From: Myxococcus dinghuensis
GTDB taxonomy: Bacteria > Myxococcota > Myxococcia > Myxococcales > Myxococcaceae
Assembly: GCF_024198235.1 (NCBI RefSeq)
Contig: NZ_JAKCFB010000003.1
Span: forward strand, 186,001 to 250,000
DNA: 64,000 bases
Reading direction: 5' to 3'
The notes under the pieces are model-generated. The model was not told the DNA's origin. It ran no database searches and saw nothing but the letters and a program-made list of their open reading frames with translations. Each line of letters starts with the position of its first letter. Positions within the stretch are counted from its first letter, which is position 1. Shown here in pieces: positions 6,191-29,270 of the stretch. Position numbers and translations under genes: made by a program.

Positions 6191-6676
6191 ATGGATTTCA
6201 AGACCGCGGACCTGTGTGACACCCACTCGAGCACCCCCGGCTTCCAGGTGGCGGAGCCCGGGTTCCACGACTACGGCGGTCGCAAGTCCTTCTCCGGCCC
6301 CGTCAGCACCGTCCGCGCCCCGGAGGACAACTCCCTGGTGCGCAAGGCCCTGGAGGAGCCCGGCCAGGGCCGCGTCCTCGTCGTGGACGGTGGCGCGAGC
6401 CGTCGCTGCGCGCTGGTGGGAGACCAGCTCGCCCTGCTCGCGCAGCGCAACGGCTGGGCGGGCGTCGTGGTCAACGGCTGCATCCGCGACTCGGTCGAGG
6501 TGGGCCGCACCGAGGTGGGCGTGAAGGCCCTGGGAACCCATCCCCTCAAGAGCGGCAAGCGCAACGAGGGGCAGCGCGACGTGGAGGTCCGCTTCGCGGG
6601 CATCACCTTCCGCCCCGGCCAGTTCCTCTACGCGGACGAGGACGGCATCGTCACGGCGGACAAGGCGCTGGGCTGA
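6191..6676 (+). CDS. rraA: RraA-family protein (RNase E regulator / aldolase-like)
   Basis: A 161-residue protein covering the full RraA/DlpA fold. It begins with KTADLCDTH and has the characteristic [17 protein letters not shown] segment, where the Arg-Asp pair belongs to the metal/substrate site of 4-hydroxy-4-methyl-2-oxoglutarate aldolase-like members, and ends [14 protein letters not shown]. In E. coli RraA binds RNase E and inhibits RNA decay; other members are aldolases or demethylmenaquinone methyltransferase-like by annotation only, so the role here is not settled. The ATG at 6191 has GGAG seven bases upstream. Its last 49 bases overlap the 3' end of the convergent WD40 gene. Confidence 0.9.
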
Positions 6677-8571
6677 GTCCGCCACGCGCTCCGGGGCCAG
6701 ACGAGGACGGTGGCGTCGGCGCTCCCCGAGGCCAGCCACTCACCGTCCCGCGAGAAGGCCAGGGCCTGGATGCCCGCGAGGTGTCCGTGCAGCGTGGCCA
6801 GGAGCGCCCCGTCGCGCCCCCAGACCCGGACCTGGCCCTCGATGTCCCCCGTCGCGACCAGGCTGCCATCCGCCGAGAGCGCGACGGCCCAGGTGAAGAC
6901 ACTCGCGCCCAGCCTCACTTCCCGCCCCGGGCATGACAGGTCGACGAGGACGACGTCGCGGTAGTCCTCCTGGAGGACCAACACACCTTCGTCCGGAGCG
7001 AGGCACAGGAGCCGTGCGCGCTGGCGCCGGCCGATGACCACCGGGCGATAGGTGCCCCTCTTCACGTCCCAGAGCTTGCTCGTCCACCGTCGCGTCCCGT
7101 CGTCCACGCTCCACGCGTTCACGACCAACAACCATCGGCCGCCTCGGGAGACGGCGCTGATGCGTGTGCCGAGCCGCTCGCATACCTCTCCGACCCGAAG
7201 CCCCGTCCGGGTGTCGGTCACCCTCAGCCAGGCGTCGCCGTGCTCCTCGTGGACCTGCGCGAAGGCGCTGCCATCGTCCGCCCAGACCGCGCTGTAGACA
7301 TCACACCCATCGGAGAGCTCCGTCGTCTCCTCCGACAACGGGTCGAACAGGAACCTCTCCCGAAAGCCCATCACCACACAGGCGCGCCCCGCGCTCAGGA
7401 ACATCCGATGCGGGTACTCCGGGAGCTGGGGCACATAGCGCACCTGACGTCCCGAATCATGCTCCCAGACCCGCAGGCCTCCGTCCGCGCAGAACGTCAC
7501 GAGGTGCCGCCCATCGTCCGCGAACGAAAGGTGCGTGACCAGATGGTGGTGCGCCTGCTCCGGAACGACGCGCCACGCCTCCAGGTCCACCAGGAGCACG
7601 CAAGCGGCGTCCCTCGCGAAGGCGACCCATCGTCCGTCGGGTGAAACCCCGGGTCGCCACCTCGTCGCCGCGGTTTCACACGGCAATCGCAGCCACCGCT
7701 CCAACTGCTCTCCGCGTGAGACAACCAGGCGTTGATTCACGATGCGCATCTGACGCCCGTCGGGCAGGGGCCATGTCGGCGCGGGGGAATGGGCCCGCAC
7801 GACCTCCTCCACCAGAACGCCGGTCCGGACCGCATAGGTCCGCACGCGGTTCTTCTCGCGCTCGGTCTCCAGGTATCGACACTGGATGGAGTCGCCCTCC
7901 GCGGAGAACACCGCCCAGGAATAGGGACCGTCCACGGCGCCGTCCACCTGCCAGCGTGGCGTCCATTCACGGGCGTCGAAGACAGACAAGCGCGTGAGCC
8001 GTTCACCGTGCTCCAGCATCAGGACACAGGAACCGTCGGGTGAGAAGGACAGCTCGGCCGGAGCGCCCGGGCTGTCGGGCAGCGACACATGTTTCACCAA
8101 CGTCTCGGTGGGCACATCGAAGACCACGAAGCCGTTCGGCCGCTCCGTCGCCGCCAGCAACGTGGTGCCGTCCGGAGACAGCGCCAGCCGCCGGCCGCCG
8201 CTGCCTGGCACTCGCCAACACCGCAGCACCGCTCCGCGAGGGACGTCCCACAGCCGCATGGCGCCGTCCATGCTCAAGGTGACGACACGTTCGGGGGACA
8301 CGAACCGGGCGGCCATCACGGGCTGCTCATCCGCCTCCAGCACTCGCAGCTCACGCCCGTCCACGGGGTCCCACACCCGCGCGGAGCAATCCCCCGCGGT
8401 GACGAGCGCTCGTGAATCCGGGGAGAAGGAGACCGAGGACAACGACCCGAGCGACTTCCCCGAACCGAAGCGGTGCAGATAGCGCACGGTGCCGCAGCGA
8501 CTGTGCGCGAGCTCGGGGAGCACATCTCCCCAGGCGTCGAGTCGACCATCCCTTCCATCCGACGTCGTCAT
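6628..8571 (-). CDS. WD40 repeat protein (downstream paralogue)
   Basis: A 647-residue protein made almost wholly of WD40-type blades. [80 protein letters not shown] and [21 protein letters not shown] are typical blades, enough for two beta-propellers. No signal peptide, kinase domain or other enzyme domain is visible, so it is probably a cytoplasmic scaffold. The start at 8571 is set by alignment with the neighbour (both open with '...GRCGTVRY'-type segments) and by a GGGAGG over the upstream stop. The long open frame beyond it is antisense-like shadow. It follows its paralogue by seven bases. The last 15 or so residues are an extension encoded opposite rraA and absent from the paralogue. 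Confidence 0.82.
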
Positions 8572-8578
8572 CGACGGG

Positions 8579-10471
8579 TCATCCCTCCCAGGCCCGCGAG
8601 GGCCAGATGAGCGCCACCGCATCCGCCCCACCCGAAGCCAGGAAGTCCCCTCGTGGGGAGAAGGCCAGGGCGGTGACAGTCCCCCTGTGGCCCTCCAGCG
8701 AGGCCAGGAGCCGCCCGTCGATGCTCCAGACCTGGACCCGCCCATCCGTGTCCCCCGTGGCCAGCAGGGTCCCCTGCTCCGCGAAAGCGAGGGTCCAGAA
8801 GCGCGAGGCACAGCGCAGGTGGACGCGGCGCTCCGGATACGCGAACTCCACGAGGGACAGCACGCCCGGCGCCGCCTCGAGCACGAGCGTTCCCTCATCC
8901 GGGGTGAAGCCCCATGTCCTCTGCCCACGGGGAATTCGCAGCGTGCGCCAGCGTGCGCCGAGAGACAGGTCCCACAGCCGCAGGTCAACGAACCCTCCTG
9001 GCAACTCGTCACCCACCGTCACCACGCGCGCCCCCGTCCGAGATACCGCGTGGAGCGACGCGTCTCCGGACTCCACGAGAACGTTCCACAGACAGCGCCC
9101 ATCGCGGGTGTCACAGACCCGCAGGCGCATATCGGGGCCAGCGTGGACCAGCTCCGCGAGGATGAACCGGTCGTCGGACCATGCCGCTGACGCGACGTTA
9201 CGACTGCTCACCAGCTCCACTTCCGTGTGGTGCATGAAGTCGACGAGGAGTCGCCCCCCCTGGAGATGCGACACCTCGAAGACGCGTCCCCCGCTGAGTT
9301 GGACCGAGTCCATGCTCGTCCCGGAGAAGGAACGACAGCCCACCTCGCGTCCGGACTGAGGGAACCAGGCGCGAACGGAGCCATCCTGGGCGAAGGTCGA
9401 CAACACGGTCGGCTCGTCCTTCGAGAACGTGAGCTGAGACACCGCCGTGCGGTGCGCGTGCTCCGGGACCATGCGACGCGTCTCCAGGTCCAGCAGCACC
9501 ACGGAGGAGTCGTCTCGTGCGAACGATGCCCATCGCCCATCGGGGGACACAGCCACGTTCCGGTCATCACCTCGCAGGTCGCCAGGCAATGACATCCACC
9601 GCTCGAGGCAGGCCCCCCGGTAGACGAGGAGCCGGTCTGGTAGCAGCCGCACCTTCCGCCCATCCGGCAATGGCAGGGAGGGACCTGCCTCCCTCTGGAC
9701 CTCGACCTCGGCGACGCTCTCGCCCGTCCGGGCCGCGTGCGTGCGGATGTAACAACGCCACTCGACGCCCGTGCGTCGGGTGTGGATGAAGGCGCTGTCC
9801 TCGGAGAACACCGCCCAGGGGTGTCCATACGCATACCCCTCCCGGGACCACAGCAGACTCCAGCCGGTGGTCTCGAAGACACACAGACGAACCGGCTCCA
9901 GACTCGCCTCCAACACGAGCGCGAGCGTCCCGTCGGGAGAGAACGAGAGCGAGTACGCCGGCCCGAAGCTGTTCTCCAGCTGGAGTCGCTTCACGAGCGT
10001 CCCCGTCCGCAGGTCGAAGACGACCAGGCACTCCGGTCCCTCACAGCCCGCCAGCAGCGTGTGCCCATCCGGGGAGAGCGCCAACGCGCGGACCGCATGG
10101 CCGAAGCCCCCCCACCGTGACAGCACCTCGCCCGTCGTCGCCTCCCACAGCGTCACCGCACCGCCGGCTCCACTGGCCGTGACGATGAGACCTCCAGGCA
10201 CGTGGAGCGCGGCATGTATCGGCCGCTCACCGTCGCGCAGGACGAGCACCTCCCGTCCCGTCTCGATATCCCAGACGCGCGCGGAGATGCCTCCCGAGGT
10301 CAGCAACCTGCGCGAGTCCTGCGAGAAGGACACCGTGCCGACACCCCGCGTACCAACGTCCTTCTCTCGGGGGTGCCAGTAGCGCACCGTCCCACAGCGG
10401 CCATGCGCCTGCACGGGAAGAGGGTCTCCAAAAACGTCCAGCCGGGGCAGGGTCGGGTCCGGTTCGGGCAT
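8579..10471 (-). CDS. WD40 repeat protein (upstream paralogue)
   Basis: A 630-residue WD40 protein similar to its downstream neighbour along the whole length. It has the shared opening (DVFGDPLPVQAHGRCGTVRY) and blades such as SFSQDSRRLLTSGGISARVWD, ALSPDGHTLLAGCEG, AVSPDGRWASFARDD and AFSPRGDFLASGGADAVALIW, ending SRAWEG. The pair arose by tandem duplication. The start at 10471 is chosen by matching the paralogue; upstream codons in the same frame read like non-coding sequence, and no strong ribosome site is seen, so the start is less certain than the frame. The divergent region in front carries three palindromic operators that could also affect this gene. Partner proteins are unknown. Confidence 0.8.
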   Translation of the reverse strand: MPEPDPTLPRLDVFGDPLPVQAHGRCGTVRYWHPREKDVGTRGVGTVSFSQDSRRLLTSGGISARVWDIETGREVLVLRDGERPIHAALHVPGGLIVTASGAGGAVTLWEATTGEVLSRWGGFGHAVRALALSPDGHTLLAGCEGPECLVVFDLRTGTLVKRLQLENSFGPAYSLSFSPDGTLALVLEASLEPVRLCVFETTGWSLLWSREGYAYGHPWAVFSEDSAFIHTRRTGVEWRCYIRTHAARTGESVAEVEVQREAGPSLPLPDGRKVRLLPDRLLVYRGACLERWMSLPGDLRGDDRNVAVSPDGRWASFARDDSSVVLLDLETRRMVPEHAHRTAVSQLTFSKDEPTVLSTFAQDGSVRAWFPQSGREVGCRSFSGTSMDSVQLSGGRVFEVSHLQGGRLLVDFMHHTEVELVSSRNVASAAWSDDRFILAELVHAGPDMRLRVCDTRDGRCLWNVLVESGDASLHAVSRTGARVVTVGDELPGGFVDLRLWDLSLGARWRTLRIPRGQRTWGFTPDEGTLVLEAAPGVLSLVEFAYPERRVHLRCASRFWTLAFAEQGTLLATGDTDGRVQVWSIDGRLLASLEGHRGTVTALAFSPRGDFLASGGADAVALIWPSRAWEG

Positions 10472-10563
10472 GTCGGGGTGAACGCCAGCGACGGACGATT
10501 CCCGCCAACCTGACGAACACCGCACGCCAACCCATGACATCCCGCGTCGAACCGACCCCGCAC

Positions 10564-10663
10564 GTTCCGCTTCGCGAAACACAATCAGCCCAAACCCAAT
10601 CACCCATTCCGCCATGCGGAACCCATCCGAAAGACACCTCACGAGCGTTCCGCATCGCGAAAA
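10564..10663. promoter_or_regulatory. Three phased 17-bp palindromic operators, probable IclR-type sites
   Basis: Three palindromes of the form RTTYCGC-N3-GCGRAAM lie between the divergent WD40 and ABC-transporter genes: GTTCCGC-TTC-GCGAAAC (10564-10580), ATTCCGC-CAT-GCGGAAC (10606-10622) and GTTCCGC-ATC-GCGAAAA (10647-10663). Their start-to-start distances are 42 and 41 bp, close to four helical turns, so all three would face the same side of the DNA. The same motif sits beside the IclR regulator gene (25924-25940) and before the gene at 29316. Binding by that regulator is inference. Confidence 0.65.
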
Positions 10664-10749: not shown

Positions 10750-12045
10750 ATGCAACGACTCGTGGTCGGACTCCTGGTAGCGACGCTCGGACTGGTGGCC
10801 TGCAAGAAGGAAGAGGCTTCGACGCCGAAGCCAGAGGAGGCCGCCGCGCGCGCGCAGCCGGCCTCGGACGTCAAGACAGACAAGGGCGTCGACGTGGAGA
10901 AGAAGGTCGTCTACATCGGCGCGCTCAACGACGAGAGCGGCCCGGGTGCGGCCATCGGCAAGCCCTTCGCCGCGGGCAAGCGCCTGCTGGCGAAGCAGGT
11001 GAACGCGGGTGACAGCGGCCTGCTCCCCGCGGGGTGGACCATCGAACTCGTCGAGCGCGACCACGCCTACAACCCGCAGAACGCGGTGCAGGCGTACAGC
11101 GACATCCACGACAACGTGCTGTTCCTCGGCACCAGCTTCGGCACACCCAACACCCTGCCCCTGCGCGACAAGCTGACCGCGGACGGCCTGGTGGCCTTCC
11201 CCGCGTCGCAGTCGTCGGAGATGGCGCGACACGAGTACACGCCGCCCATCGGCGCGTCGTACAAGCTGGAGGCGATGCGCGCCATGGACTGGGCCGTCGA
11301 GCATGCCGGCGGCGCGGCCAAGGTGAAGGCCGCCATCGTCGCGCAGGGCGACGACTACGGGAAGGACGGCCTGGAAGGCTGGGCGGAGGCCGCGAAGTTC
11401 CACGGCGTCACCATCGTGTCGCAGCAGAGCGTCGCCCCGGGCCAGAAGGACTTCGCCGCCGTCGTCACCGCGCTGAAGGCCTCCGGCGCCAACTACGTGC
11501 TGCTCACCGTGCTGCCCGGCGCGTCCGGCCCCATCCTCGGCACCGCCGCCCAGCTCAAGTACCTGCCCAACTGGGTGGGCCAGACGCCCGCCTGGGTGGA
11601 CCGCTTCTTCGACCCCAAGGTCATCCCGCCCCCGGTCTTCACGAACTTCTACTGGGCCACGGGCCTCACCTTCTGGGGCGACGACGTGCCGGGCATGAAG
11701 GACTTCCTCGCGCTCCACGCGAAGTATCCGGACACGCCCAGGGACTTCTACACGCTGTCCTCCTACGTCCAGGGCCGCATCCAGTTGGAGGCCCTCCAGG
11801 CGGCCATCGAATCGAAGGACGTCACCCGCGCCGGCTACCTCAAGGCCCTCAAGGCCCTGAACACGACCGCGGGCGGCATGACGGCGGAGCCGGTGAACCT
11901 CTCCCGCTTCCCGTACGAGACGGCCGTCGACGTCCGCGTGCTCAAGCCCGTGCTCGACCAGGGCACCTGGAGCGTCGTCGCGGGCTACGCCGCGCCCAAG
12001 GCCCTGAGCCCCCCCACGCCCCGGGCCGCCGATGTCAGCAAGTAG
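10750..12045 (+). CDS. ABC transporter substrate-binding lipoprotein (LivJ-like)
   Basis: A 431-residue periplasmic binding protein of the type I (Leu/Ile/Val, Peripla_BP_6) class. The signal peptide ends in LGLVAC with Cys18 followed by KK, predicting a lipoprotein; the Lys right after the Cys resembles the inner-membrane retention signal reported for Myxococcus. The mature part starts VVYIGALNDESGPGAAIGKPFAAG and has the family segments FLGTSFGTPNTLPLRDKL and AAIVAQGDDYGKDGLEGW. It is the first gene of a six-gene importer operon. Because the operon contains an acyl-CoA synthetase, the ligand is more likely an organic or fatty acid than an amino acid (inference). The ATG at 10750 has GGGGAGG six bases upstream; the frame's earlier start lies among the operators. 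Confidence 0.88.
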   Translation: MQRLVVGLLVATLGLVACKKEEASTPKPEEAAARAQPASDVKTDKGVDVEKKVVYIGALNDESGPGAAIGKPFAAGKRLLAKQVNAGDSGLLPAGWTIELVERDHAYNPQNAVQAYSDIHDNVLFLGTSFGTPNTLPLRDKLTADGLVAFPASQSSEMARHEYTPPIGASYKLEAMRAMDWAVEHAGGAAKVKAAIVAQGDDYGKDGLEGWAEAAKFHGVTIVSQQSVAPGQKDFAAVVTALKASGANYVLLTVLPGASGPILGTAAQLKYLPNWVGQTPAWVDRFFDPKVIPPPVFTNFYWATGLTFWGDDVPGMKDFLALHAKYPDTPRDFYTLSSYVQGRIQLEALQAAIESKDVTRAGYLKALKALNTTAGGMTAEPVNLSRFPYETAVDVRVLKPVLDQGTWSVVAGYAAPKALSPPTPRAADVSK

Positions 12046-12838
12046 TCCACCGCTGCTGCGCGTCCAGAACCTCCAGGTCGTCTACCACTCCGTGGTGCGC
12101 GCGCTCCGGGGCATCACCCTGGAGGTGCCCACGCGAGGCGTGGTGGCGCTCCTGGGGCCCAACGGCGCGGGCAAGTCCACCGCGCTGCGCGCCATCAGCG
12201 GCCTGCTGGACCTGCACGACGGCGCCATCACCCAGGGACACATCGAGCTGAGCGGCCAGAGCCTGCTGCCCCTGGCCGCGGACGGCCGCGTGCGCGCGGG
12301 CGTGGTGCAGGTACTGGAGGGCCGCCGCATCCTCGACGCGCTCTCCGTGGAGGAGAACCTGCTCGCAGGCGGCTTCGGCATGGGCCCCCAGGCGCGCCGC
12401 GAACTCGTGGAGTCCGCCTTCACGCGCTTCCCCCTGCTGCGCGAGCGCCGCCGCCAGCCCGCGGGCTACCTGTCCGGCGGCGAGCAGCAACTGCTCGCCA
12501 TCTGCCGGGGCCTGATGCGCCGCCCGCGCGTGCTGCTCCTGGACGAGCCCTTCCTCGGCCTGTCCCCCAAGGCGGTGGGCGAGGTGGCGGAGCTGATTCG
12601 CCACATCAGCGACGAGGGCGTGTCGGTGCTGCTGGTGGAGCAGAACGCGAAGGTGGCGCTGGGCCTCGCCAGCCACGGCTACGTCCTGGAGACGGGCAAG
12701 GTGGTGCTGGACGGCCCCGCCGAGCAACTGCGCGAGGACCCGGACGTCCAGGAGTTCTACCTGGGCTTCGGCCGCGAGGGGCAACGCGGCTACCACGAGC
12801 TGAAACGCTATCGCCGCAAGCGGCGCTGGCTGTCGTGA
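12032..12838 (+). CDS. ABC transporter ATP-binding protein (LivF-like)
   Basis: A 268-residue ATPase with Walker A GPNGAGKST, signature LSGGEQQ, Walker B LLLDEPFLGLSP and an H-loop region before the C-terminal 'YVLETGKVVLDGPAEQL'. These features place it in the LivF subgroup of branched-chain-type importers. It has a somewhat long basic C-terminal tail (KRYRRKRRW). The gene overlaps the binding-protein stop by 14 bases, so translation is coupled. It should pair with the LivG-like ATPase encoded next and drive the LivH/LivM-like permeases. Confidence 0.92.
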   Translation: MSASSPPLLRVQNLQVVYHSVVRALRGITLEVPTRGVVALLGPNGAGKSTALRAISGLLDLHDGAITQGHIELSGQSLLPLAADGRVRAGVVQVLEGRRILDALSVEENLLAGGFGMGPQARRELVESAFTRFPLLRERRRQPAGYLSGGEQQLLAICRGLMRRPRVLLLDEPFLGLSPKAVGEVAELIRHISDEGVSVLLVEQNAKVALGLASHGYVLETGKVVLDGPAEQLREDPDVQEFYLGFGREGQRGYHELKRYRRKRRWLS

Positions 12839-12846
12839 GGAGAGCC

Positions 12847-13617
12847 ATGGCCCTGCTCGAGCTCGACAACGTCGGCCTGTCCTTCTCCGGAGTCCGCGCC
12901 CTGGATGGCGTCAACTTCGCCATCGAGGCCGGCGCGCTGCACGCCGTGATTGGCCCCAACGGCGCCGGCAAGAGCAGCCTCTTCAACTGCATCAGCGGCA
13001 TCCACCGTCACATGGAGGGCCGGGTGTGGCTGGACGGCAAGGACCTCACGGGCGTGGGCCCCACGCGCATCGCGCACCTGGGCGTGGCGAGGATGTTCCA
13101 GAACCTGGCGCTCTTCGAGCACCTGACGGTGTTGGAGAACCTCCTGCTCGGCCGACACACGCGCTACCGCACGGGCCTGCTCGCGAACCTGTTCTGGACG
13201 CGCCGCGCGCGCGAGGAGGAGATACGTCACCGCGAGAAGGCGGAGGAGGTCATCGACTTCCTCGACCTGGAGCACTTCCGGTGGATGCCGGTGGCGGTGC
13301 TCCCGTACGGCATCCGCAAGCGCGTGGAGCTGGGCCGCGCGCTGTGCATGGAGCCGCGCCTGCTCCTGCTCGACGAGCCCACCGCCGGCCTCAACCAGGA
13401 GGAGACGGAGGACATGGCCAACCACCTGCTCGACATCCGCCACGAGCTGGGCGTGACGCAGGTCCTCATCGGCCACGAGCTGCGCTTCGTGATGGACCTG
13501 GCCACGCAGGTGACGGTGCTGGACCGGGGGCGCGTCATCGCGAACGGGCCGCCGGCGTCGCTGCGCGAGGACGCGCGCGTCTTGAGCGCCTACGTCGGCG
13601 GGACGGTGGCGGCATGA
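12847..13617 (+). CDS. ABC transporter ATP-binding protein (LivG-like)
   Basis: A 256-residue ATPase with Walker A GPNGAGKSS, the LivG-type region MFQNLALFEHLTVLENLLLGRH, and Walker B LLLDEPTAGLNQEET. The signature motif is unusual: where LSYG(E/Q)QRR is expected the sequence reads LPYGIRKRVELGRAL, a variant common in LivG proteins attached to acyl-CoA ligase operons. The ATG at 12847 follows GAGGAGA and is preferred over the in-frame GTG four codons earlier. Its TGA overlaps the ATG of the ligase gene (ATGA). Confidence 0.9.
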   Translation: MALLELDNVGLSFSGVRALDGVNFAIEAGALHAVIGPNGAGKSSLFNCISGIHRHMEGRVWLDGKDLTGVGPTRIAHLGVARMFQNLALFEHLTVLENLLLGRHTRYRTGLLANLFWTRRAREEEIRHREKAEEVIDFLDLEHFRWMPVAVLPYGIRKRVELGRALCMEPRLLLLDEPTAGLNQEETEDMANHLLDIRHELGVTQVLIGHELRFVMDLATQVTVLDRGRVIANGPPASLREDARVLSAYVGGTVAA

Positions 13618-15434
13618 GCGCCACGCTGCCCATGACGCTGGCGGGCCAGCTCTGGCTCCAGGCGGAGCAGCGCCCCCTCGCGGTCGCCATCCGCGAGAAG
13701 CACCGCGGCCTGTGGAAGGAGCTGTCCTTCCGCGACTACCTGGACCGCGTGGGCTGGGTGGCCCGCGTGCTGTGGGAGCTGGGGGTACGGGCGGGGGACT
13801 CCGTCGCCATCCTCAGCGACAACCGGCCGGAGTGGCTGTTCATGGACCTGGGCGCGCAGGTGCTCGGCGCGCGCTCGGTGGGCATCTACCAGACGAACCC
13901 CGCCGCGGACGTCGCCTTCATCCTCGAGGACGCGCGCTGCGCCGTCGTCCTCTGCGAGGACCAGGAGCAATACGACAAGGTCGCCGCCGTGGCGGCCGAG
14001 ACGCCCTCCGTCCGCCACGTCGTCGTCCTCGAGATGCGCGGACTGCGCGGCGTGGAGGACCCCCGCCTCCAGCCGTGGTCCGACTTCCTGGAGCGAGGCC
14101 GCGTGCTGCTGGCGATAACGCCCGGGTGGCTGCGCGAGCAGCTCGCCCAGCGCTCGCCGGACGAGGCGGCCATGGTCATCTACACGTCCGGCACGACGGG
14201 GACGCCCAAGGGGGCGCTCGTCTCCAGCCGCAACATGCTCCAGGGCTCGGAGCTGTTCGTCGAGCGGCTCGGCCTGGGCCCCGGGGACAGCGTCGTCTCC
14301 TACCTGCCCTTGTGCCACGTGGCGGAGAAGCTGTTCAGCCTGCTGTTGCCGCTCGTCGTGGGGGGCAAGGTCCACTTCGGAGAAGCACTGGAGACGGTGC
14401 AGCACGACGTGGCCGAGGTGTCCCCCACCGTGTTCCTCGGCGTGCCGCGCATCTGGGAGAAGATGCACGCGGCGGTGCTGGTGAAGATGAAGGACGCGTC
14501 GTGGCTCAAGCGCACGCTCTTCACCACCTTCACCCGGCTGGGCGGCCAGATTCGCGAGCGGCGCCGCGACGGCCGGCGCCGGTGGTGGGATCCGCTGGTG
14601 TGGTTCGTGGGGGACCTGCTCGTCTTCCGCCCGCTCCAGGAGCGGCTGGGGCTGCGACGCTGTCGCCTCCCCATCTCCGGCGCGGCGCCCATCTCCCCGG
14701 AGCTGCTCGCGTGGTTCGACGGCATCGGCGTGTCCATCCACGAAGGCTATGGCCAGACGGAGAGCGCGGGCACCAGCCACATCAACCTCCCGGACGCCAC
14801 GCGGCTGGGCACCGTGGGGCGCACCTCGCCGGGGGTGGAGTGTCGCATCGCCGGGGACGGCGAGGTGCTCATCCGCGGCGCCAACGTCTTCCTCGGCTAC
14901 CTCAACCGCCCGGACGCCACGGCGGAGGTGCTGGGCGAGGGCGGCTGGCTGCACACCGGGGACCTGGGTGAAGTCGACGCGGACGGCTACCTGCGCATCA
15001 CCGGCCGAAAGCGCGAAATCCTCATCACCTCCGGAGGGAAGAACCTCTCCCCCGAGCGCATCCAGAACGCGCTGAAGAACAGCCCGTACATCAAGGAGGC
15101 GGTGGCCATCGGCGACCGTCGGCCCTTCGTCACCGCGCTGGTGCAGGTGGACCCGGAGACGGTGGCCGACTGGGCGATGCGCCGTCGCATCGGCTTCACC
15201 TCGTACACGGACCTCACCCAGCGGCCCGAGGTGCGCAAGCTCATCGACGAGGAGGTGGCCCGCGCCAACGAGGGCCTCGCCCGCGTGGAGCAGGTGCGGA
15301 CCTTCCGGCTGCTGGCCCGGGAGATGACCCAGGACGCAGGCGAGGTGACCGCGTCGCTCAAGGTGCGGCGCAAGGCGGTGCTCGAGCTGCACGCGGCGTT
15401 GGTGGAAGAGATGTACGCGAGGACACGCGAATGA
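13614..15434 (+). CDS. Long-chain acyl-CoA synthetase (AMP-forming) within an ABC importer operon
   Basis: A 606-residue member of the adenylate-forming family, which activates a carboxylic acid with ATP and joins it to CoA. Visible motifs are the P-loop YTSGTTGTPKGALVS, the A5-type GYGQTESAG, the hinge segment LHTGDLGEVDADGYLRITGRKRE and an ITSGGKNLSPERIQN core. Length and the DRRRWW-type insertion match FadD15-like long-chain ligases. It is joined by ATGA overlaps to livG upstream and livH downstream, so it is made together with the transporter. Uptake followed by CoA trapping of a fatty, aromatic or alicyclic acid is the best reading; the exact substrate cannot be told. Confidence 0.9.
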   Translation: MSATLPMTLAGQLWLQAEQRPLAVAIREKHRGLWKELSFRDYLDRVGWVARVLWELGVRAGDSVAILSDNRPEWLFMDLGAQVLGARSVGIYQTNPAADVAFILEDARCAVVLCEDQEQYDKVAAVAAETPSVRHVVVLEMRGLRGVEDPRLQPWSDFLERGRVLLAITPGWLREQLAQRSPDEAAMVIYTSGTTGTPKGALVSSRNMLQGSELFVERLGLGPGDSVVSYLPLCHVAEKLFSLLLPLVVGGKVHFGEALETVQHDVAEVSPTVFLGVPRIWEKMHAAVLVKMKDASWLKRTLFTTFTRLGGQIRERRRDGRRRWWDPLVWFVGDLLVFRPLQERLGLRRCRLPISGAAPISPELLAWFDGIGVSIHEGYGQTESAGTSHINLPDATRLGTVGRTSPGVECRIAGDGEVLIRGANVFLGYLNRPDATAEVLGEGGWLHTGDLGEVDADGYLRITGRKREILITSGGKNLSPERIQNALKNSPYIKEAVAIGDRRPFVTALVQVDPETVADWAMRRRIGFTSYTDLTQRPEVRKLIDEEVARANEGLARVEQVRTFRLLAREMTQDAGEVTASLKVRRKAVLELHAALVEEMYARTRE

Positions 15435-16324
15435 CCCAGTTGCTCCAGCTCGGCATCTCCGGTCTCGCGCTCGGCGCGAGCTACGCGCTCATCGCGCTGG
15501 GCTTCTCGGTGGTGTACCGGGCCTCCCGGCTCTTCAACTTCGCGCACGGCGAGCTGCTCAGCCTGGGCGCGTTCCTGATGACGGCGCTCGCGCAGGTGCT
15601 GCCCTGGTGGCTGGCGCTCGCCGCCACTGCCGCGCTCACCGGCGGGTTGGCCGCCCTGCTGGAGCGCGCGGTGCTGCGCCGCATGGTGGGCCGCCCCGTC
15701 TTCACCACCATCATCCTCACGCTGTTCCTCGGGCTGCTGCTGCGCGCGGGAATCGTCATCGCCTTCGGCGCGGACACCCGCGGCATGCCCACGCCGTGGG
15801 ACGCCATGGCGGAGGTGCAACTGGGCGACTCCACGGTGCTCCTGTCGTCGCTGGTTTCACTGGGCGCGACCACCGTCGTGCTCGTGGGGCTGCACGGGCT
15901 GGTGCAGCGCACGCCGCTGGGCGTGGCGATGCGCGCGTCGAGCGAGAACCAGGAGGTGGCGCTGTCGCTGGGCATCCCCGTGGGACGCGTGCTCGGCTTC
16001 ACCTGGTTCCTCGCGGGCGCGACGGCGGCGGTGGCCGGCGTGTTCCTGGGGATGTTCCCGCGCTCGGTGGACTCGAACCTGGGCTACGTCGCGCTGCGCG
16101 CGTTCCCCGCCATCATCGTGGGCGGGCTGGAGTCCGTGGTGGGCGCGGTGGTGGCCGCGTTCGTGCTGGGCCTCCTGGAGGTGCTGTCGCAAGCCTATGT
16201 GAACCCGCACCTGGGCGCCTTCGGGCACAACTTCCACGCCGTCTTCCCCTACGCCGCGATGATCCTCTTCCTGGTCCTGCGTCCGCGTGGGCTGTGGGGG
16301 GAGCACGAGGTGCGCCGCGTCTAG
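15431..16324 (+). CDS. ABC transporter permease (LivH-like)
   Basis: A 297-residue membrane protein with about eight hydrophobic helices. It has the LivH opening GLALGASYALIALGFSVVYRASRLFNFAHGEL and the cytoplasmic coupling segment MRASSENQEVALSLGIPVGRVLG, both diagnostic of the branched-chain-type inner-membrane permease. Its ATG overlaps the ligase stop. It is expected to form a heterodimer channel with the LivM-like protein encoded 23 bases downstream. Confidence 0.92.
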   Translation: MTQLLQLGISGLALGASYALIALGFSVVYRASRLFNFAHGELLSLGAFLMTALAQVLPWWLALAATAALTGGLAALLERAVLRRMVGRPVFTTIILTLFLGLLLRAGIVIAFGADTRGMPTPWDAMAEVQLGDSTVLLSSLVSLGATTVVLVGLHGLVQRTPLGVAMRASSENQEVALSLGIPVGRVLGFTWFLAGATAAVAGVFLGMFPRSVDSNLGYVALRAFPAIIVGGLESVVGAVVAAFVLGLLEVLSQAYVNPHLGAFGHNFHAVFPYAAMILFLVLRPRGLWGEHEVRRV

Positions 16325-16347
16325 TGCGCGCGCTCGCGAGACGACCC

Positions 16348-17439
16348 ATGCCGACCCGCCCCCTGGTGATTCGCTACGAAGACGACCTGAAGCTGCTGCC
16401 CGGCGCGTGGCACAAGGCCGGCGCGGTGCTCGCGGTGGCAGTCGCCCTGGCCTATCCGTGGCTGGCCAGCGCGCGCTGGCTCACGGTGGGCAACCTGGGG
16501 CTGGTGGCCATCGTCGGCGCGGCGGCGTTGATGGTGCTCACGGGCTTCGCCGGACAGGTGAGCCTGGGACACGCGGCCTTCCTCGCCTTGGGCGCGTACG
16601 CGGTGGCGGTGCTCGGCGGGAAGCTCGGGTGGCCCTTCTGGCTGGCGCTGCCCTTCGCGGGGGGACTGTCCGCGCTGGTCGGCGTGGTCATCGGCGCGTT
16701 CGCGCTGCGGCTCAAGGGGCTCTACCTGGCCATCGTCACGCTGGGGTTGGTGTTCCTCACCCAGCACGTGCTGCTCGCCTACCCGGACGTGACGAACGGC
16801 CTCAGCGGCACGGCCGTGCCCATGTCGTGGTGGTTCCGCGACGAGACGGGCGCGGGCGGGGTGCCGCTGGGAGGCACGTGGACGGTGGGCGGGGTGCGGC
16901 TCACGTTCGAGCGGAAGCTGTACTTCGTGTTCCTGCTCCTGTCGGGCGGCGCGGTGTGGCTGACGCGCAACGTGCAGCGCTCCGACAGCGGCCGGGCGAT
17001 GATGGCGGTGCGGGACCAGGACCTGGCGGCGGAGGTGCTCGGCGTCGACACGACGCGGGCGAAGCTCCAGGCCTTCGGGGTGTCTTCCTTCCTGGCGGGG
17101 GTGGCGGGGGCGATGTTCGCCTTCCAGCAGCAATACATCACGGTCGAGCCGCCCTTCGACCTGAACCTGTCCATCCAATACATCGCGATGATCGTCCTCG
17201 GCGGCGTGGGCTCCGTGTTCGGCGCGGTGAGCGGCGCGCTGGCCTTCACGTTCCTGAGCCCGCTGGCGGAGACGGTGGGCGGCGCGGTCCCGCTGCTAGA
17301 CCAACTGACGTCGGCGCAGCAGGCGACGGTGTTGTTGTCGGGGGTGGTGGTGCTCGTGCTGGTGCGCGAGCCGCTGGGGCTGTTCGGGGTGTGGCTGCGG
17401 GTCCGGCGGTACTTCCAGGCGTGGCCCTTCCGTTACTGA
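16348..17439 (+). CDS. ABC transporter permease (LivM-like)
   Basis: A 363-residue permease with about ten hydrophobic helices. LivM signatures are TGFAGQVSLGHAAFLALGAY, LRLKGLYLAIVTLG and the coupling segment MMAVRDQDLAAEVLGVDTTRAKLQAF, followed by VLGGVGSVFGAVSGA. The ATG at 16348 is used; a GTG at 16324 directly after the livH stop would add eight residues and cannot be excluded. It completes the importer: binding lipoprotein, two ATPases and two permeases, with the ligase inside the operon. Confidence 0.92.
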   Translation: MPTRPLVIRYEDDLKLLPGAWHKAGAVLAVAVALAYPWLASARWLTVGNLGLVAIVGAAALMVLTGFAGQVSLGHAAFLALGAYAVAVLGGKLGWPFWLALPFAGGLSALVGVVIGAFALRLKGLYLAIVTLGLVFLTQHVLLAYPDVTNGLSGTAVPMSWWFRDETGAGGVPLGGTWTVGGVRLTFERKLYFVFLLLSGGAVWLTRNVQRSDSGRAMMAVRDQDLAAEVLGVDTTRAKLQAFGVSSFLAGVAGAMFAFQQQYITVEPPFDLNLSIQYIAMIVLGGVGSVFGAVSGALAFTFLSPLAETVGGAVPLLDQLTSAQQATVLLSGVVVLVLVREPLGLFGVWLRVRRYFQAWPFRY

Positions 17440-17484: not shown

Positions 17485-18402
17485 ATGAAGCGCATGCTGC
17501 TTACCGTCCTGTTCGTGTCGCTCCTGTCCGCGTCCGGTGCCGAGGCCCAGCAGCCGGACCTGCGTGACTACGAGGCGGGCTTTTTCGTCCCGCACCGAGG
17601 CGTCATCACCAACATGTACCTGCGTCACGTCTCCGCCTCCGGTGAGCGGGACTTCTCGCAACTCCAAGCCGCGTTCCGCGCCACGTACGTGTTGAAGTTC
17701 GCGGACCTGGTCGTCGTCCCGCTCGACGTGAGCCTGCCGGTGGTGGACGTCACGGTGTTCCAGGCCAACCCGGCCACGCCCGCGGGCCCGAAGACGGCGC
17801 TGCGAGCCTCGGGTGTGGGCGACATCACGTACATCCCGACGATTGGCTATGGGCTGGTCCAGAACGCGGAGATCAACACGCACACGTGGTTCGCGTTCAC
17901 GCCCTACGTCACGATTCCGACGGGCAGCTATGACAGCACCCGGTTCGTCAACATCGGCGCCAACCGCTGGGTGGTACGTCCGCAGCTCGTCGTGGGCCAG
18001 CGCTTCATGAAGGCGTTCACCGCGGAGGCCATGGTGAACATGGCGTTCCAGGGAGACAACGACGAGTACCTGCTGCCCACGACGGAGGGGGCGGCGAAGG
18101 TGACGCTGAGCCAGGCCCCCACGTTCGGCGGCATCTTCCACCTGGGCATGGACCTGTCCCCCACGTTCTTCACTGGCGTGGGCTACCTCATCGACAAGGC
18201 GGGCAAGCGCACCGTGGAGACGGGCGCGGGTGAGCTGCAGATCGCCCCCAGCCAGACGGTGCAGTCGCTGCGGCTGACCATGGGCATCCGCCTGGAGAAG
18301 GCCTCCACGCTGATGCTCCAGTTCCAGCCGGACATCGACGTGTCGGAGGGCGTGACGAAGAGCCAGTACGTGGGCGCGCGCTTCACGCACGTGTTCTTCT
18401 GA
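17485..18402 (+). CDS. Outer-membrane channel-like protein of the phenol MetA-pathway family
   Basis: A 305-residue protein with a Sec signal peptide (cleavage after GAEAQ/A-type residues near 20-22). The rest consists of alternating amphipathic beta strands, and it ends in Phe-Phe, the usual C-terminal signal of outer-membrane barrels. Segments GDITYIPTIGYGL, FTPYVTIPTGSYDS and GANRWVVRPQLVVGQRF match the 'MetA-pathway of phenol degradation' (transporter) family, found with aromatic or hydrophobic-compound catabolic genes. It lies 45 bases after livM and probably provides the outer-membrane step of uptake for the same substrate. A ten-pair hairpin follows the stop. Confidence 0.82.
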   Translation: MKRMLLTVLFVSLLSASGAEAQQPDLRDYEAGFFVPHRGVITNMYLRHVSASGERDFSQLQAAFRATYVLKFADLVVVPLDVSLPVVDVTVFQANPATPAGPKTALRASGVGDITYIPTIGYGLVQNAEINTHTWFAFTPYVTIPTGSYDSTRFVNIGANRWVVRPQLVVGQRFMKAFTAEAMVNMAFQGDNDEYLLPTTEGAAKVTLSQAPTFGGIFHLGMDLSPTFFTGVGYLIDKAGKRTVETGAGELQIAPSQTVQSLRLTMGIRLEKASTLMLQFQPDIDVSEGVTKSQYVGARFTHVFF

Positions 18403-22413: not shown

Positions 22414-23610
22414 TCAGACGCGCTCCAGGACCGCGGCGATGCCCTGTCCCACGCCGATGCACATGCTCACGAGCGCATGCCGGCCACCGGCCACCTGGAG
22501 CTGTCGCGCGGCCGTCAGCGCCAGCCGGGCCCCAGAGGCCCCGAGCGGATGCCCCACGGCGATGGCGCCCCCGTTGGGGTTCACCCGGCTGTCGTCCGCG
22601 TCGAGCTCGAGCAGCTTGAGGCACCCCAGCACCTGGGGCGCGAAGGCCTCGTTGATTTCGATGACCGAGACGTCCCCGAGCGACAAGCCCGCGCGCTCCA
22701 GCGCCTTGCGCGCGGCCGGGACGGGCCCCAGGCCCATCGTGCGAGGAGGCACCCCCGCGATGGCGGCCGACACGATGCGCGCCAGCGGCTTGCACCCCGC
22801 GCGCTCCCCCACCCCGAGGCTGCCCACCAGCAGCGCCGCCGCGCCGTCGTTGATTCCGGAGGCATTGCCCGCCGTGACGACGCCGTCCTCCGCGAGCGCC
22901 TTCAACGAGGCCAGCTTGTCGAGCGACGAGTCGGGGCGGGGATGCTCATCCACCGTCACCGTCGTGACGGCGCCACGGCGCCCCGGCAACTCCACGGGCA
23001 CCAGCTCCCCGTTGAAGAAGCCTCGCGCCTTCGCCGCCGCGTACTTCTGCTGCGAGGCCCACGCGAACCGGTCGCTCGCCTCGCGGCCGATGCCCAGCTC
23101 ACGGGCCACGTTGTCCGCCGTCTCCGGCATCGTGTCCCCGCCGTAGCGGGCGACGAGCCGGGGATTGGGGAAGCGCGCGCCCAGCGTGGTGTCGAAGACC
23201 TGCGCGTCTCGGCTGTACGCGGACTCCGCCTTGGCCAGGGCGAAGGGCGCGCGGCTCATGCTCTCCACCCCTCCGGCGACGAACAACTCGCCCTGCCCCG
23301 CCAGCACGGCGCGCGCGGCGTCGAGGACCGCCGCCAACCCGCTGCCGCACAGCCGGTTGACCGTCACGCCGCCAGCCTCCACGGGCAGGCCCGCGAGCAG
23401 CGCCGCGTGTCGGGCCACGTTGCGGCTGTCCTCACCCGCCTGGTTCGTGCAGCCGATGACGACGTCCTCCACGTCGCCGGGCTCGAAGGGGCCGCGCGAC
23501 ATCAGCGCGCGGATGACTCCGGCCAGCAGCTCGTCGGGGCGGACCGGGGCCAGGGCTCCAGCATGTCGGCCGAACGGCGTGCGCAGCCCGTCGTAGATAT
23601 AGGCGCTCAT
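22414..23610 (-). CDS. Acetyl-CoA C-acyltransferase (thiolase), possibly 3-oxoadipyl-CoA type
   Basis: A 398-residue thiolase. The acylated Cys lies in VNRLCGSGLAAV, the active-site His in NPNGGAIAVGHPLGASGARL, and the second Cys in HALVSMCIGVGQG. The opening IYDGLRTPFGRHAGAL is typical of the PaaJ/PcaF branch, but ordinary beta-ketothiolases share it, so the specific substrate is open. The start is at 23610, four bases after the stop of the 3-hydroxyacyl-CoA dehydrogenase gene, showing tight operon coupling. Together they carry out the last two steps of a beta-oxidation round. Confidence 0.9.
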   Translation of the reverse strand: MSAYIYDGLRTPFGRHAGALAPVRPDELLAGVIRALMSRGPFEPGDVEDVVIGCTNQAGEDSRNVARHAALLAGLPVEAGGVTVNRLCGSGLAAVLDAARAVLAGQGELFVAGGVESMSRAPFALAKAESAYSRDAQVFDTTLGARFPNPRLVARYGGDTMPETADNVARELGIGREASDRFAWASQQKYAAAKARGFFNGELVPVELPGRRGAVTTVTVDEHPRPDSSLDKLASLKALAEDGVVTAGNASGINDGAAALLVGSLGVGERAGCKPLARIVSAAIAGVPPRTMGLGPVPAARKALERAGLSLGDVSVIEINEAFAPQVLGCLKLLELDADDSRVNPNGGAIAVGHPLGASGARLALTAARQLQVAGGRHALVSMCIGVGQGIAAVLERV

Positions 23611-23614
23611 CAGG

Positions 23615-25138
23615 TCAGCTCTCGGGGGTGAGGAGGGAGACGCCGAGCCGGGCCCGGCGCGACAACCAGGGGCTCGCGCGGTAGCGCGGGTCCCCCGACG
23701 CGGCATGAATCGCTTCCAGCACCTTCGACAGCCGGCGAGGCCCGAGCGCGTCACCCCACGCCAGCGGCCCGCGCGGATAGCCCAGCCCCAGCGTCACCGC
23801 CGCGTCGATGTCCTCCGGACTGGCGATGCGCTGCTGGGCGATGTCGCAGCCGATGTTGACCACGGTGGCGAGCACCCGCTGCGAGACGAAACCGCTGCTG
23901 TCGTGGATGCGGGACACCGCCGTGCCATCCGCCGACAGCAGCGACAGGGCCGAGTCTCGGAACCCAGGCCGGGTCACGGGGGTGGTCATCGCGGTGCGCC
24001 GGCGCTCGGGGCCGAACAACAGGTCCACCGCCACCGTGCGCTCCGGGTCCACCTCCAGCGCGAGCGCGGTGGTGGTCGCGTCCCGGCCCAGCGGCGCGAC
24101 GAGGCACAGGGACTCCGGCGAGGGACGCGCACCACCATCCGGGAACCACCCCGCGGCCCGGACGATGGACACCAGCGCGTCACGCCACGCCGGCTCGTCC
24201 GCCGCCACCCACACGGGACGGCGTTCACCCTCGGGACCCCTGGGGGCTGGGACAGGCCGTTGCCTGCCCTCCTCGTACGAATAGAACCCGCGCCCGCTCT
24301 TGCGCCCGAGCAGCCCCGCGGCCAGCCGCTGACGCAGCACGTACGACGGACGGAACCGGGGCTCCTGGTAGAACTGCTCGTAGACGGACTCCATCACCGG
24401 GTGCGAGACGTCCAGCCCCGTCAGGTCCAGGAGCTCGAACGGCCCCATCCGGAAGCCAGCGGACTCGCGCAGGATGCGGTCGACCTCGTCGAACGACGCG
24501 ACGCCCTCCTGGAGGATGCGCAGCGCCTCCGTACCGAAGCCGCGCCCCGCGTGGTTGACGATGAAGCCCGGCGTGTCCGCGGCGCGCACCGGGCGGTGTC
24601 CCAGGCGCTTCGCGAGGGCCACGAGCGCCTCGCCCACCCAGGGCTCGGTGCGCGCGCCCTCGATGACCTCCACCACCTTCATCAACGGCACGGGGTTGAA
24701 GAAGTGGAAGCCCCCCACCCGTCCCGGTCGCTCGCACGTCGCCGCGATGGCGGTGACGGACAGGGACGAGGTGTTGGTCGCCAGCAGGCACTCGGGCCCG
24801 ACGATGCCCTCCAACCGGGTGAACAGCTCCCGCTTCACCCGCAGGTCCTCGACGATGGCCTCCACCACCCCATGGCAGCCCGCGAGCGCCGACTCCTGGG
24901 CGACCACGTGGAGCCGGGCCATGGCCGCGCGCGCGGCCTCGGCGGACATGCGCCCCTTCGTCGTCAGCGCGTCGAACGTCGCGCCGACGGAGGCCCGCGC
25001 CTCCTCCGCCGCCAGGGGGCGGCTGTCGAACAGCCGCACCGTGATGCCCGCCTGCGCGGCGAGCTGCGCGATGCCCCGCCCCATGACCCCCGTCCCCACG
25101 ACCCCCAGGACGAGCCCCGCGTCGTCGACGTCGAGCAT
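23615..25138 (-). CDS. 3-hydroxyacyl-CoA dehydrogenase, PaaH/PaaC-like
   Basis: A 507-residue NAD-dependent enzyme. The Rossmann motif is GVVGTGVMGRGIAQLAAQAG (residues about 12-31). The catalytic His/Glu region is GGFHFFNPVPLMKVVEVI, followed by one C-terminal dehydrogenase domain (about 190-290) and a second, degenerate one near the end (RVLATVVNIGCDIAQQRIASP). This double C-domain arrangement and length match PaaH/PaaC-type enzymes of the phenylacetate and dicarboxylate pathways rather than the single-domain short form. The start is one base from the stop of the enoyl-CoA hydratase gene. Confidence 0.9.
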   Translation of the reverse strand: MLDVDDAGLVLGVVGTGVMGRGIAQLAAQAGITVRLFDSRPLAAEEARASVGATFDALTTKGRMSAEAARAAMARLHVVAQESALAGCHGVVEAIVEDLRVKRELFTRLEGIVGPECLLATNTSSLSVTAIAATCERPGRVGGFHFFNPVPLMKVVEVIEGARTEPWVGEALVALAKRLGHRPVRAADTPGFIVNHAGRGFGTEALRILQEGVASFDEVDRILRESAGFRMGPFELLDLTGLDVSHPVMESVYEQFYQEPRFRPSYVLRQRLAAGLLGRKSGRGFYSYEEGRQRPVPAPRGPEGERRPVWVAADEPAWRDALVSIVRAAGWFPDGGARPSPESLCLVAPLGRDATTTALALEVDPERTVAVDLLFGPERRRTAMTTPVTRPGFRDSALSLLSADGTAVSRIHDSSGFVSQRVLATVVNIGCDIAQQRIASPEDIDAAVTLGLGYPRGPLAWGDALGPRRLSKVLEAIHAASGDPRYRASPWLSRRARLGVSLLTPES

Positions 25139-25139
25139 G

Positions 25140-25910
25140 TCAGCGCCCCTCGAAGGTGGGCTCGCGCTTGTCGAGGAAGGCCCGCATGCCCTCCTTCTGG
25201 TCGCGCGAGGCGAAGAGGAGCTGGAACGCCTTGCGCTCCAGCAGCAGCGCGTCCGCCAACGGCGCGTCCTGCCCGGCGAGGACGACCTCCTTGATCTGCC
25301 TCACCGCCAGCGCCGGCAGCCGCGCCACCTTGCGCGCCAGCGCGAGCGCCCGCTCCAGCACCTGGTCGTCGGGGACCACCTCCGTGACGAGTCCCATCGC
25401 CTCCGCCTCGCGCGCCGTGACGGGCTCGCCGGTGAGTAGGAGCTTCATCGCCTTGAACTTCCCCACCGCCCGCGTCAGCCGCTGCGTGCCGCCCGCGCCC
25501 GGCATGATGCCCACGCGGACCTCCGGCTGACCGAAGGTGGCGCCCTCGCCCGCGACAATCATGTCCGCGTGCATCGCCAGCTCGCAACCGCCGCCGAGCG
25601 CATACCCATTCACCGCCGCGATGACCGGACTGGGGCACCCCGCCAGCGCCCGCCAGAGCGAATGTGTATCACTCAACATCAGCTCCACCGGCGTCGCCTC
25701 CACGAGCGCGCGCAGGTCCGCGCCCGCCGCGAAACACTCCGGCCCGCCCGTCAGCACGATGCAGCGCACCGCCGCGTCCGCCCCCAGCTCCTCGAAGCAG
25801 CCCGCGAGCGCGCGCCTCAGCTCCAGGCTCAATGCATTGCGGACGGCGGGGCGGTGCAGTCGCACCACCGCGAGTCCTTCCTCGGGCCTTTCGACAAAGA
25901 CATCTGGCAT
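25140..25910 (-). CDS. Enoyl-CoA hydratase
   Basis: A 256-residue crotonase-fold protein. The oxyanion and acid residues are visible in AAGADLRAL, GYALGGGCELAMHAD (first catalytic Glu) and FGQPEVRVGIMPGAGGTQRL (second Glu), so true hydratase activity is expected. It is the first gene of the five-gene minus-strand operon. I use the ATG at 25910, which has GGGATG about eight bases ahead; an ATG at 25919 would add three residues. A 17-bp operator ends only 14 bases upstream of this start, so the transcription start is probably very close to the gene. Confidence 0.9.
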   Translation of the reverse strand: MPDVFVERPEEGLAVVRLHRPAVRNALSLELRRALAGCFEELGADAAVRCIVLTGGPECFAAGADLRALVEATPVELMLSDTHSLWRALAGCPSPVIAAVNGYALGGGCELAMHADMIVAGEGATFGQPEVRVGIMPGAGGTQRLTRAVGKFKAMKLLLTGEPVTAREAEAMGLVTEVVPDDQVLERALALARKVARLPALAVRQIKEVVLAGQDAPLADALLLERKAFQLLFASRDQKEGMRAFLDKREPTFEGR

Positions 25911-25923
25911 GGCTGGCATCCCA

Positions 25924-25940
25924 ATTTCGCTGTGCGAAAC
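25924..25940. promoter_or_regulatory. Palindromic operator in the divergent enoyl-CoA hydratase / IclR promoter region
   Basis: ATTTCGC-TGT-GCGAAAC forms 7-bp arms around three bases and matches the three sites at 10564-10663. A further half site, ATTTCGC, lies at 25944-25950. The position beside an IclR-family gene and against the start of the beta-oxidation operon fits autoregulation plus control of the operon. Binding itself is inferred. Confidence 0.65.
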
Positions 25941-26019
25941 TGAATTTCGCAGACCTTGACCCTCTTTTACTGTCTGTCTATCTTCCTGGCAATCCCGCTC
26001 ATTCCAGGACCGCGAACCC

Positions 26020-26874
26020 ATGCCACGTTTCGCAGCCCCTTCGTTTCCGCCCAATGATGAAGTCGGTGCCTCCTTCGTGGATTCGCTGGAGCAGGTGAGC
26101 GCCGAGGAGGTGAAGGACCGCCAGTTCGTGACGGCGCTGGCGCGCGGGCTGGAAATCTTGCGCGCGTTCACGCCGCAGCGGCCCATGCTCGGCAACCAGG
26201 AGCTGGCGGCGAGCACCGGCCTGCCCAAGCCCACCATCTCCCGGCTGACGCATACGCTGACGCGGCTGGGCTACCTCACGTATTCGGAGCGGCTGGGCAA
26301 GTATCAACTGAGCACGCGGGTGCTCGCGCTGGGGTTCGCGGCGCTCTCCAACATGGGCGTGCGCGACGTGGCGCGACCGCTGATGCAGGACCTGGCGGAC
26401 TACGCGAACGTACCGGTGTCGCTCGGCAGCCGGGACCGGATGAACGTGGTGTACGTGGAGCACTGTCGCTCCACGGCGGCGGTGACGCTGCGGTTGGACA
26501 TCGGCTCGCGGCTGCCGCTGGCCACCACGGCCATGGGGCGCGCGCTGCTGGCCGCGCTACCGGAGGGCGAGCGGCGCTACTTCATGAACCACATGGCCAA
26601 GCGCGAGCCGGAGAAGTGGCCGCGCATCGAGGCCAGCATCGAGAAGGCGCTGGAGGACTACCGCACGCACGGCTTCACGCTCTCCATCGGGGACTGGGAC
26701 CGGGACGTCAACGCGGTGGGCGTGCCCTTCATCCCGCCGGACGGCAGCGGCATCCTCGCCTTCAACTGTGGCGGCCCCTCGTTCCTGCTGCCCAAGCAAC
26801 GGCTGCTGCTCGATATCGGACCTCGACTGGTGAACCTCGTCCGCAACGTCGAGGCGGCCCTGCAGCGGCGCTGA
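26020..26874 (+). CDS. IclR-family transcriptional regulator
   Basis: A 284-residue regulator. After a 25-residue leader comes the N-terminal winged helix-turn-helix (FVTALARGLEILRAF ... ELAASTGLPKPTISRLTHTL, about residues 40-95), then the IclR effector domain (about 110-280) with RDRMNVVYVEHC, IGSRLPLATTAMGRALLA and the closing NCGGPSFLLPKQRLLLDIGPRL. IclR proteins sense small acids or their CoA esters. It is divergent from the beta-oxidation operon and 16 bases ahead of an acyl-CoA dehydrogenase gene, so it most likely controls both directions. Whether it represses or activates cannot be read from the sequence. Confidence 0.92.
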   Translation: MPRFAAPSFPPNDEVGASFVDSLEQVSAEEVKDRQFVTALARGLEILRAFTPQRPMLGNQELAASTGLPKPTISRLTHTLTRLGYLTYSERLGKYQLSTRVLALGFAALSNMGVRDVARPLMQDLADYANVPVSLGSRDRMNVVYVEHCRSTAAVTLRLDIGSRLPLATTAMGRALLAALPEGERRYFMNHMAKREPEKWPRIEASIEKALEDYRTHGFTLSIGDWDRDVNAVGVPFIPPDGSGILAFNCGGPSFLLPKQRLLLDIGPRLVNLVRNVEAALQRR

Positions 26875-29253: not shown

Positions 29254-29270
29254 GTTTCGGGTCGCGAAAC
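29254..29270. promoter_or_regulatory. Fifth copy of the RTTYCGC palindrome
   Basis: GTTTCGG-GTC-GCGAAAC lies 46 bases before the start of the CBM1 lipoprotein gene. It matches the consensus of the sites at 10564-10663 and 25924-25940 except for one G in the left arm. If bound by the same regulator, the lipoprotein at 29316 belongs to the same regulon. Confidence 0.5.

Follow-up and report, generated by a model that had tools for sequence, protein, structure and literature searches.

Palindromes mark a predicted IclR regulon of importer, beta-oxidation and hydrolase genes in Myxococcus dinghuensis

In the 64-kb window analysed here (the whole stretch of 64,000 nucleotides from Myxococcus dinghuensis), three palindromes upstream of an importer and acyl-CoA ligase operon share their motif with the promoter of an IclR-family regulator gene and, elsewhere in the genome, with that of a secreted hydrolase gene. 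We consider it quite probable that these palindromes are IclR operators which place the importer–ligase operon, the beta-oxidation cluster around iclR and the secreted hydrolase in one regulon, in which IclR dimers would activate the importer and autoregulate iclR and the substrate would be of adipate type.

The palindromic array and the importer operon

The preliminary description of this DNA reported three 17-bp palindromes whose starts lie 42 and 41 bp apart, and both their positions and their fit to RTTYCGC-N3-GCGRAAM proved exact:

10564–10580, no strand assigned: site 1, the distal palindrome, GTTCCGCTTCGCGAAAC, exact match to RTTYCGC-N3-GCGRAAM
10606–10622, no strand assigned: site 2, the middle palindrome, ATTCCGCCATGCGGAAC, exact match to RTTYCGC-N3-GCGRAAM
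10647–10663, no strand assigned: site 3, the proximal palindrome, GTTCCGCATCGCGAAAA, exact match to RTTYCGC-N3-GCGRAAM

With up to two mismatches allowed, this pattern has 18 matches in the 64-kb window against 6.7 expected, a number that no shuffle reached. The exact core TTYCGCN3GCGRAA, for which the chance rate is a first-order Markov estimate, was found 4 times in the window (0.02 expected) and 10 times in the 10.4-Mb genome (3.4 expected), the genome-wide counts coming from consensus-pattern searches rather than a weight matrix. The fourth exact palindrome of the window, at 25924–25940 and directly upstream of the IclR gene, had been overlooked. We judge the three palindromes to be a real regulatory array and a further member of the known IclR group-1 operators.

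Downstream of the array the importer genes form a run of overlapping genes:

10750–12045, plus strand: substrate-binding protein (Peripla_BP_6)
12032–12838, plus strand: ABC ATPase of Liv type
12835–13617, plus strand: ABC ATPase of Liv type with BCA_ABC_TP_C
13590–15434, plus strand: AMP-forming acyl-CoA ligase, start approximate
15431–16324, plus strand: LivH-type permease
16321–17439, plus strand: LivM-type permease
17485–18402, plus strand: outer-membrane protein of the Phenol_MetA_deg family, probably the seventh gene of the operon

The operon had been counted as six genes; it has at least seven, the LivM gene being followed at 17485 by that of the outer-membrane protein. The nearest solved relative of the substrate-binding protein is 4n03, titled "fatty acid ABC transporter substrate-binding protein"; the structural model of this protein is of moderate quality (mean pLDDT 60.1), and its fold matches are read as hints only. 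For the acyl-CoA ligase, a sequence search of solved structures at E 1e-40 returned no match, and no model places the AMP ligase with a dicarboxylate. Two divergent WD40-repeat genes (6628–10474) adjoin the importer on its other side. Their control by the same array, suggested earlier, is not borne out by comparison, a WD40 homologue standing at this place in only four of the 13 site-bearing genomes.

The IclR gene and its three-box operator

The regulator gene lies among genes of beta-oxidation, with an acyl-CoA dehydrogenase downstream and a hydratase, a 3-hydroxyacyl-CoA dehydrogenase and a thiolase on the divergent side:

22414–23610, minus strand: 3-oxoadipyl-CoA thiolase, start approximate (NF006001)
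23615–25138, minus strand: 3-hydroxyacyl-CoA dehydrogenase, PaaH-like
25140–25919, minus strand: PaaF-like enoyl-CoA hydratase, whose start codon and the iclR operator are about 5 bp apart
25924–25950, no strand assigned: three-box operator ATTTCGC-TGT-GCGAAAC-TGA-ATTTCGC between the hydratase gene and iclR
25956–25984, plus strand: putative iclR promoter TTGACC-N17-TATCTT, a match to a sigma-70-like consensus, aligned in relatives
26020–26874, plus strand: IclR-family regulator (PF09339 and PF01614)
26891–28042, plus strand: acyl-CoA dehydrogenase

Both family domains of the regulator score well above their cut-offs (IclR helix-turn-helix, PF09339, 65.2 bits with a cut-off of 22; IclR C-terminal domain, PF01614, 76.4 bits with a cut-off of 24), and the protein is the only clear IclR of the genome, the next HTH_IclR match scoring 34 bits against 68. 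The PcaR/PcaU/PobR model (TIGR02431) is the nearest subfamily model, at 142.7 bits, below its curated cut-off of 284.75.

The palindromes, of which 76 were tabulated, agree with the IclR group-1 operator consensus GKTYCRYW3-4RYGRAMC of Suvorova and Gelfand (2021, PMC8222616), both in their half-sites with the N3 spacer and as a whole; the PcaR operator of Corynebacterium glutamicum, GTTCGC-N3-GCGAAC, belongs to the same group (PMC8222616). Sites made of three boxes have been described for PcaU, PobR and HmgR (PMC8222616), and in PcaU and PobR of Acinetobacter baylyi the operator, an inverted pair with an outer direct repeat, stands before the regulator gene. The same arrangement is found at the promoter of iclR itself (ATTTCGC-N3-GCGAAAC-TGA-ATTTCGC), five base pairs before the TTGACC-N17-TATCTT promoter; it is kept in orthologues as RTTTCGC-N3-GCGAAAY-TGA-RTTTCGC and is recognisable in Magnetospirillum and its relatives, that is, in Alphaproteobacteria. 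Unlike the PcaU/PobR systems, the targets here are a CoA-ester beta-oxidation set instead of the protocatechuate pathway, and the third box is missing from the arrays at the importer and the hydrolase.

Activation or repression

We infer binding by IclR, activation rather than repression, and the identity of the ligand. In the mechanism that we propose, IclR dimers would occupy the two conserved sites upstream of an importer promoter that has no recognisable sigma-70 consensus, a pathway metabolite would bind IclR, and the importer promoter would then be activated. The same protein would autoregulate at its own three-box operator, which adjoins the -35 box of iclR on one side and the hydratase start on the other. 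Activation of the importer is proposed because no sigma-70-like promoter was recognised there, in a scan for this single promoter type that counts as weak evidence, and because the sites stand at a considerable distance upstream of the start.

The same regulator and sites could instead work by repression, with apo-IclR on the array blocking the importer promoter until a metabolite releases it. We regard this as a serious rival, though one that we would not bet on: the IclR family includes activators and repressors, fitness data from Ralstonia show a PcaR-like IclR behaving as a repressor (PMC12543098), and the operator at 25924 lies about 5 bp from the hydratase start codon, where it could repress. 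At the importer the geometry argues the other way, since 86 bp separate the end of the nearest site from the start codon, the likely -10 region is free of palindromes, and the lack of a strong recognisable promoter is what would be expected of an activated gene.

A predicted second target: the secreted hydrolase

The exact arrays that we found precede two targets only, the importer operon and one secreted, esterase-like hydrolase of about 290 residues. The hydrolase gene is unlinked to the window (contig C59, 253455), and its promoter carries two palindromes 37 bp apart (G000:C59:253192-253245, or L017:17192-17245 in locus coordinates). All 19 hydrolase orthologues have between one and five sites at spacings of 22–42 bp, mostly 29–33 and 36–39 bp; a hydrolase paralogue in one relative (G007) has no sites. 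The largest arrays seen, with five palindromes in one genome (G130, locus L179) and four in another (G122, locus L178), are at the hydrolase promoter, with spacings of 30–42 bp.

The invariant residues S142 (in GFSQGS), D199 and H250 of the hydrolase could form a catalytic triad. A sequence search against solved structures gave no match for this protein. Its structural model is poor (mean pLDDT 50.9), and what its fold resembles can serve only as a hint. Where the model is confident it resembles alpha/beta hydrolases; PETases and cutinases lead the ranking, level with general esterases, and the best match is 8ytw (Z 13.0, 27% identity over 135 residues).

Other genes near the palindromes were noted in passing. 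After the secreted alpha/beta hydrolase comes a second hydrolase-like gene (L017:18540), and 12 kb from the hydrolase an exact palindrome (G000:C59:241111-241127; L017:5111) lies at the 5' end of a gene whose product is predicted to be exported and matches no Pfam family, possibly a further member of the regulon. Within the window, a one-mismatch palindrome at 29254–29270, GTTTCGGGTCGCGAAAC, precedes a gene whose secreted product has a DNRLRE domain and a CBM_1 of fungal type; conserved in none of five relatives, this site was dropped.

Conservation, spacing and helical phase

Comparison with related genomes upheld only part of the original array. All 13 genomes that have the importer operon together with the IclR retain sites 2 and 3 before it, at 40–41 bp from each other, site 2 being exact in 10 and carrying one mismatch in three to four, and the spacer sequences among the importer palindromes have diverged. 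Site 1 is lineage-specific, found only in this species and its sister genome G127.

The preliminary description had further proposed that the sites, about four helix turns apart, could build one higher-order complex on a single face of the DNA. In its favour are the importer spacing of 40–42 bp in all 13 genomes and a modest over-representation of spacings of about three and four turns among IclR tandem sites (PMC8222616). Yet the third site is lineage-specific, and site 3 keeps its place relative to the start codon (-100 to -103 in the 13 genomes) as strictly as the sites keep their spacing, so that conservation extends over the full promoter length and the constant spacing is not creditable to phasing alone. 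The hydrolase arrays of the same regulon, at 22–42 bp, commonly use 37 bp (3.5 turns) and 29–30 bp and have no significant 10.5-bp phase (Rayleigh p 0.07, from data that are not independent). Tandem sites are common in the IclR family, with a main spacing of 18–22 bp between centres (PMC8222616) that corresponds to IclR tetramer sites; here the importer sites stand 40–42 bp and the hydrolase sites 22–42 bp apart (mostly 29–42 bp), in one to five copies. Helical phasing is possible at the importer, but the regulon as a whole does not share it and it is not established as a working principle, only two sites being conserved; a phase-locked complex strikes us as rather unlikely. In the mechanism that we favour, the extra palindromes would simply add occupancy.

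Which protein uses the palindromes

The regulator encoded at 26020 had been named as the predicted binder and the importer operon as its target, and the comparisons support this pairing: across the class, arrays, importer and IclR orthologue are present or absent together, and the motif precedes iclR in many phyla. In a first sample of 59 genomes of the family, the motif lies near iclR in each of the eight that have the orthologue. A distant set comprised 75 loci from Alpha-, Beta-, Gamma- and Deltaproteobacteria whose IclR proteins are 49–63% identical; within 500 bp upstream of iclR these loci hold 42 exact palindromes, against one in the other 1.22 Mb. This enrichment is independent evidence because the loci were picked by the IclR protein and not by the motif. 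In seven loci of Desulfuromonadales type (L066, L068, L074, L092, L098, L099 and L117) two exact palindromes stand about 208–210 bp apart upstream of iclR homologues, a strikingly constant spacing of about 20 helix turns that may mean a DNA loop.

The class-wide comparison covered 147 genomes. Of the 20 with a close IclR orthologue (E below 1e-120), 17 carry exact tandem arrays, and none of the remaining 127 does (Fisher p 1.5e-19, a value that ignores shared ancestry), and all controls with reversed patterns gave zero. Nine more genomes of the class have IclR homologues of 45–52% identity and no arrays. The fairest comparison is that within the genus, where the importer operon is present in all 13 genomes with the IclR and absent from all 14 without it. 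Two genomes that have no IclR orthologue (G012 and G145) carry homologues of the importer (substrate-binding protein) without sites.

Use of the palindromes by a transcription factor other than the IclR at 26020 is very improbable in view of this strict co-occurrence, of the motif at iclR's own promoter across phyla and of the match to the group-1 consensus. Chance seems to account for two exact copies inside coding sequence (C36:110502 and C53:42425, set aside on that ground). For the array, chance or a structural repeat without a regulatory role has next to no standing, with 0.02 exact matches expected per 64 kb and the sites held in place in 13 genomes despite diverged spacers. The palindromes are almost certainly operators of the IclR at 26020, as far as comparative sequence data can predict them.

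Pathway and substrate

The thiolase of the iclR cluster scores 658 bits against NF006001, above the NCBIfam equivalog cut-off of 622 for 3-oxoadipyl-CoA thiolase. The order thiolase, hydroxyacyl-CoA dehydrogenase, hydratase, iclR, acyl-CoA dehydrogenase also occurs in loci of Magnetospirillum, Azospirillum and Pseudomonas, and it is identical to that of thiolase, 3-hydroxyacyl-CoA dehydrogenase, enoyl-CoA hydratase, IclR and acyl-CoA dehydrogenase in the adipate cluster of Pseudomonas jessenii, ORF4277-4282 (PMC6061476). The proteins of that cluster are induced on caprolactam, and its assignment to adipate rests on this induction (PMC6061476). In P. jessenii the enzyme that activates the acid is a CoA-transferase, of which we identified none in the iclR cluster here; the AMP-forming ligase of the importer operon, about 10 kb off and tied in by the palindromes, would take its place. 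The P. jessenii study described no operator (PMC6061476).

The phenylacetate (paa) pathway is ruled out: the gene set does not serve phenylacetate because the genome has no match to PaaA (TIGR02156). By this likeness in gene content an adipate-type dicarboxylic acid is the most likely substrate and our best guess. A fatty or other acyl substrate is also possible, because no model assigns the ligase to a dicarboxylate and the match of the binding protein is titled as fatty acid.

Implications

The type of site is already well known; the predicted regulon is worth more than the spacing. Literature searches for Myxococcus and IclR gave no earlier account of such a regulon and no studied IclR regulator in the genus, and a search by half-site sequence gave no relevant paper. 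The natural series of one to five copies at 22–42 bp in about twenty related genomes suits a direct test of helical phase in IclR cooperativity.

A bolder picture, which we offer as a speculation with the odds well against it, is that predatory myxobacteria scavenge polyesters by means of a complete regulon marked by the arrays, in which a secreted cutinase/PETase-like hydrolase would free dicarboxylic acids, the Liv-type importer with its CoA ligase would import them and the adipate-type beta-oxidation cluster would burn them, all under one IclR whose operators, in one to five copies, vary in helical phase between species. Overall, the palindromes make a single regulon, open to testing, out of three unlinked or distant gene sets: the importer with its ligase, the beta-oxidation cluster of adipate type and the secreted hydrolase. 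Should polyesters be substrates of the hydrolase, this regulon would be relevant to the breakdown of polymers.
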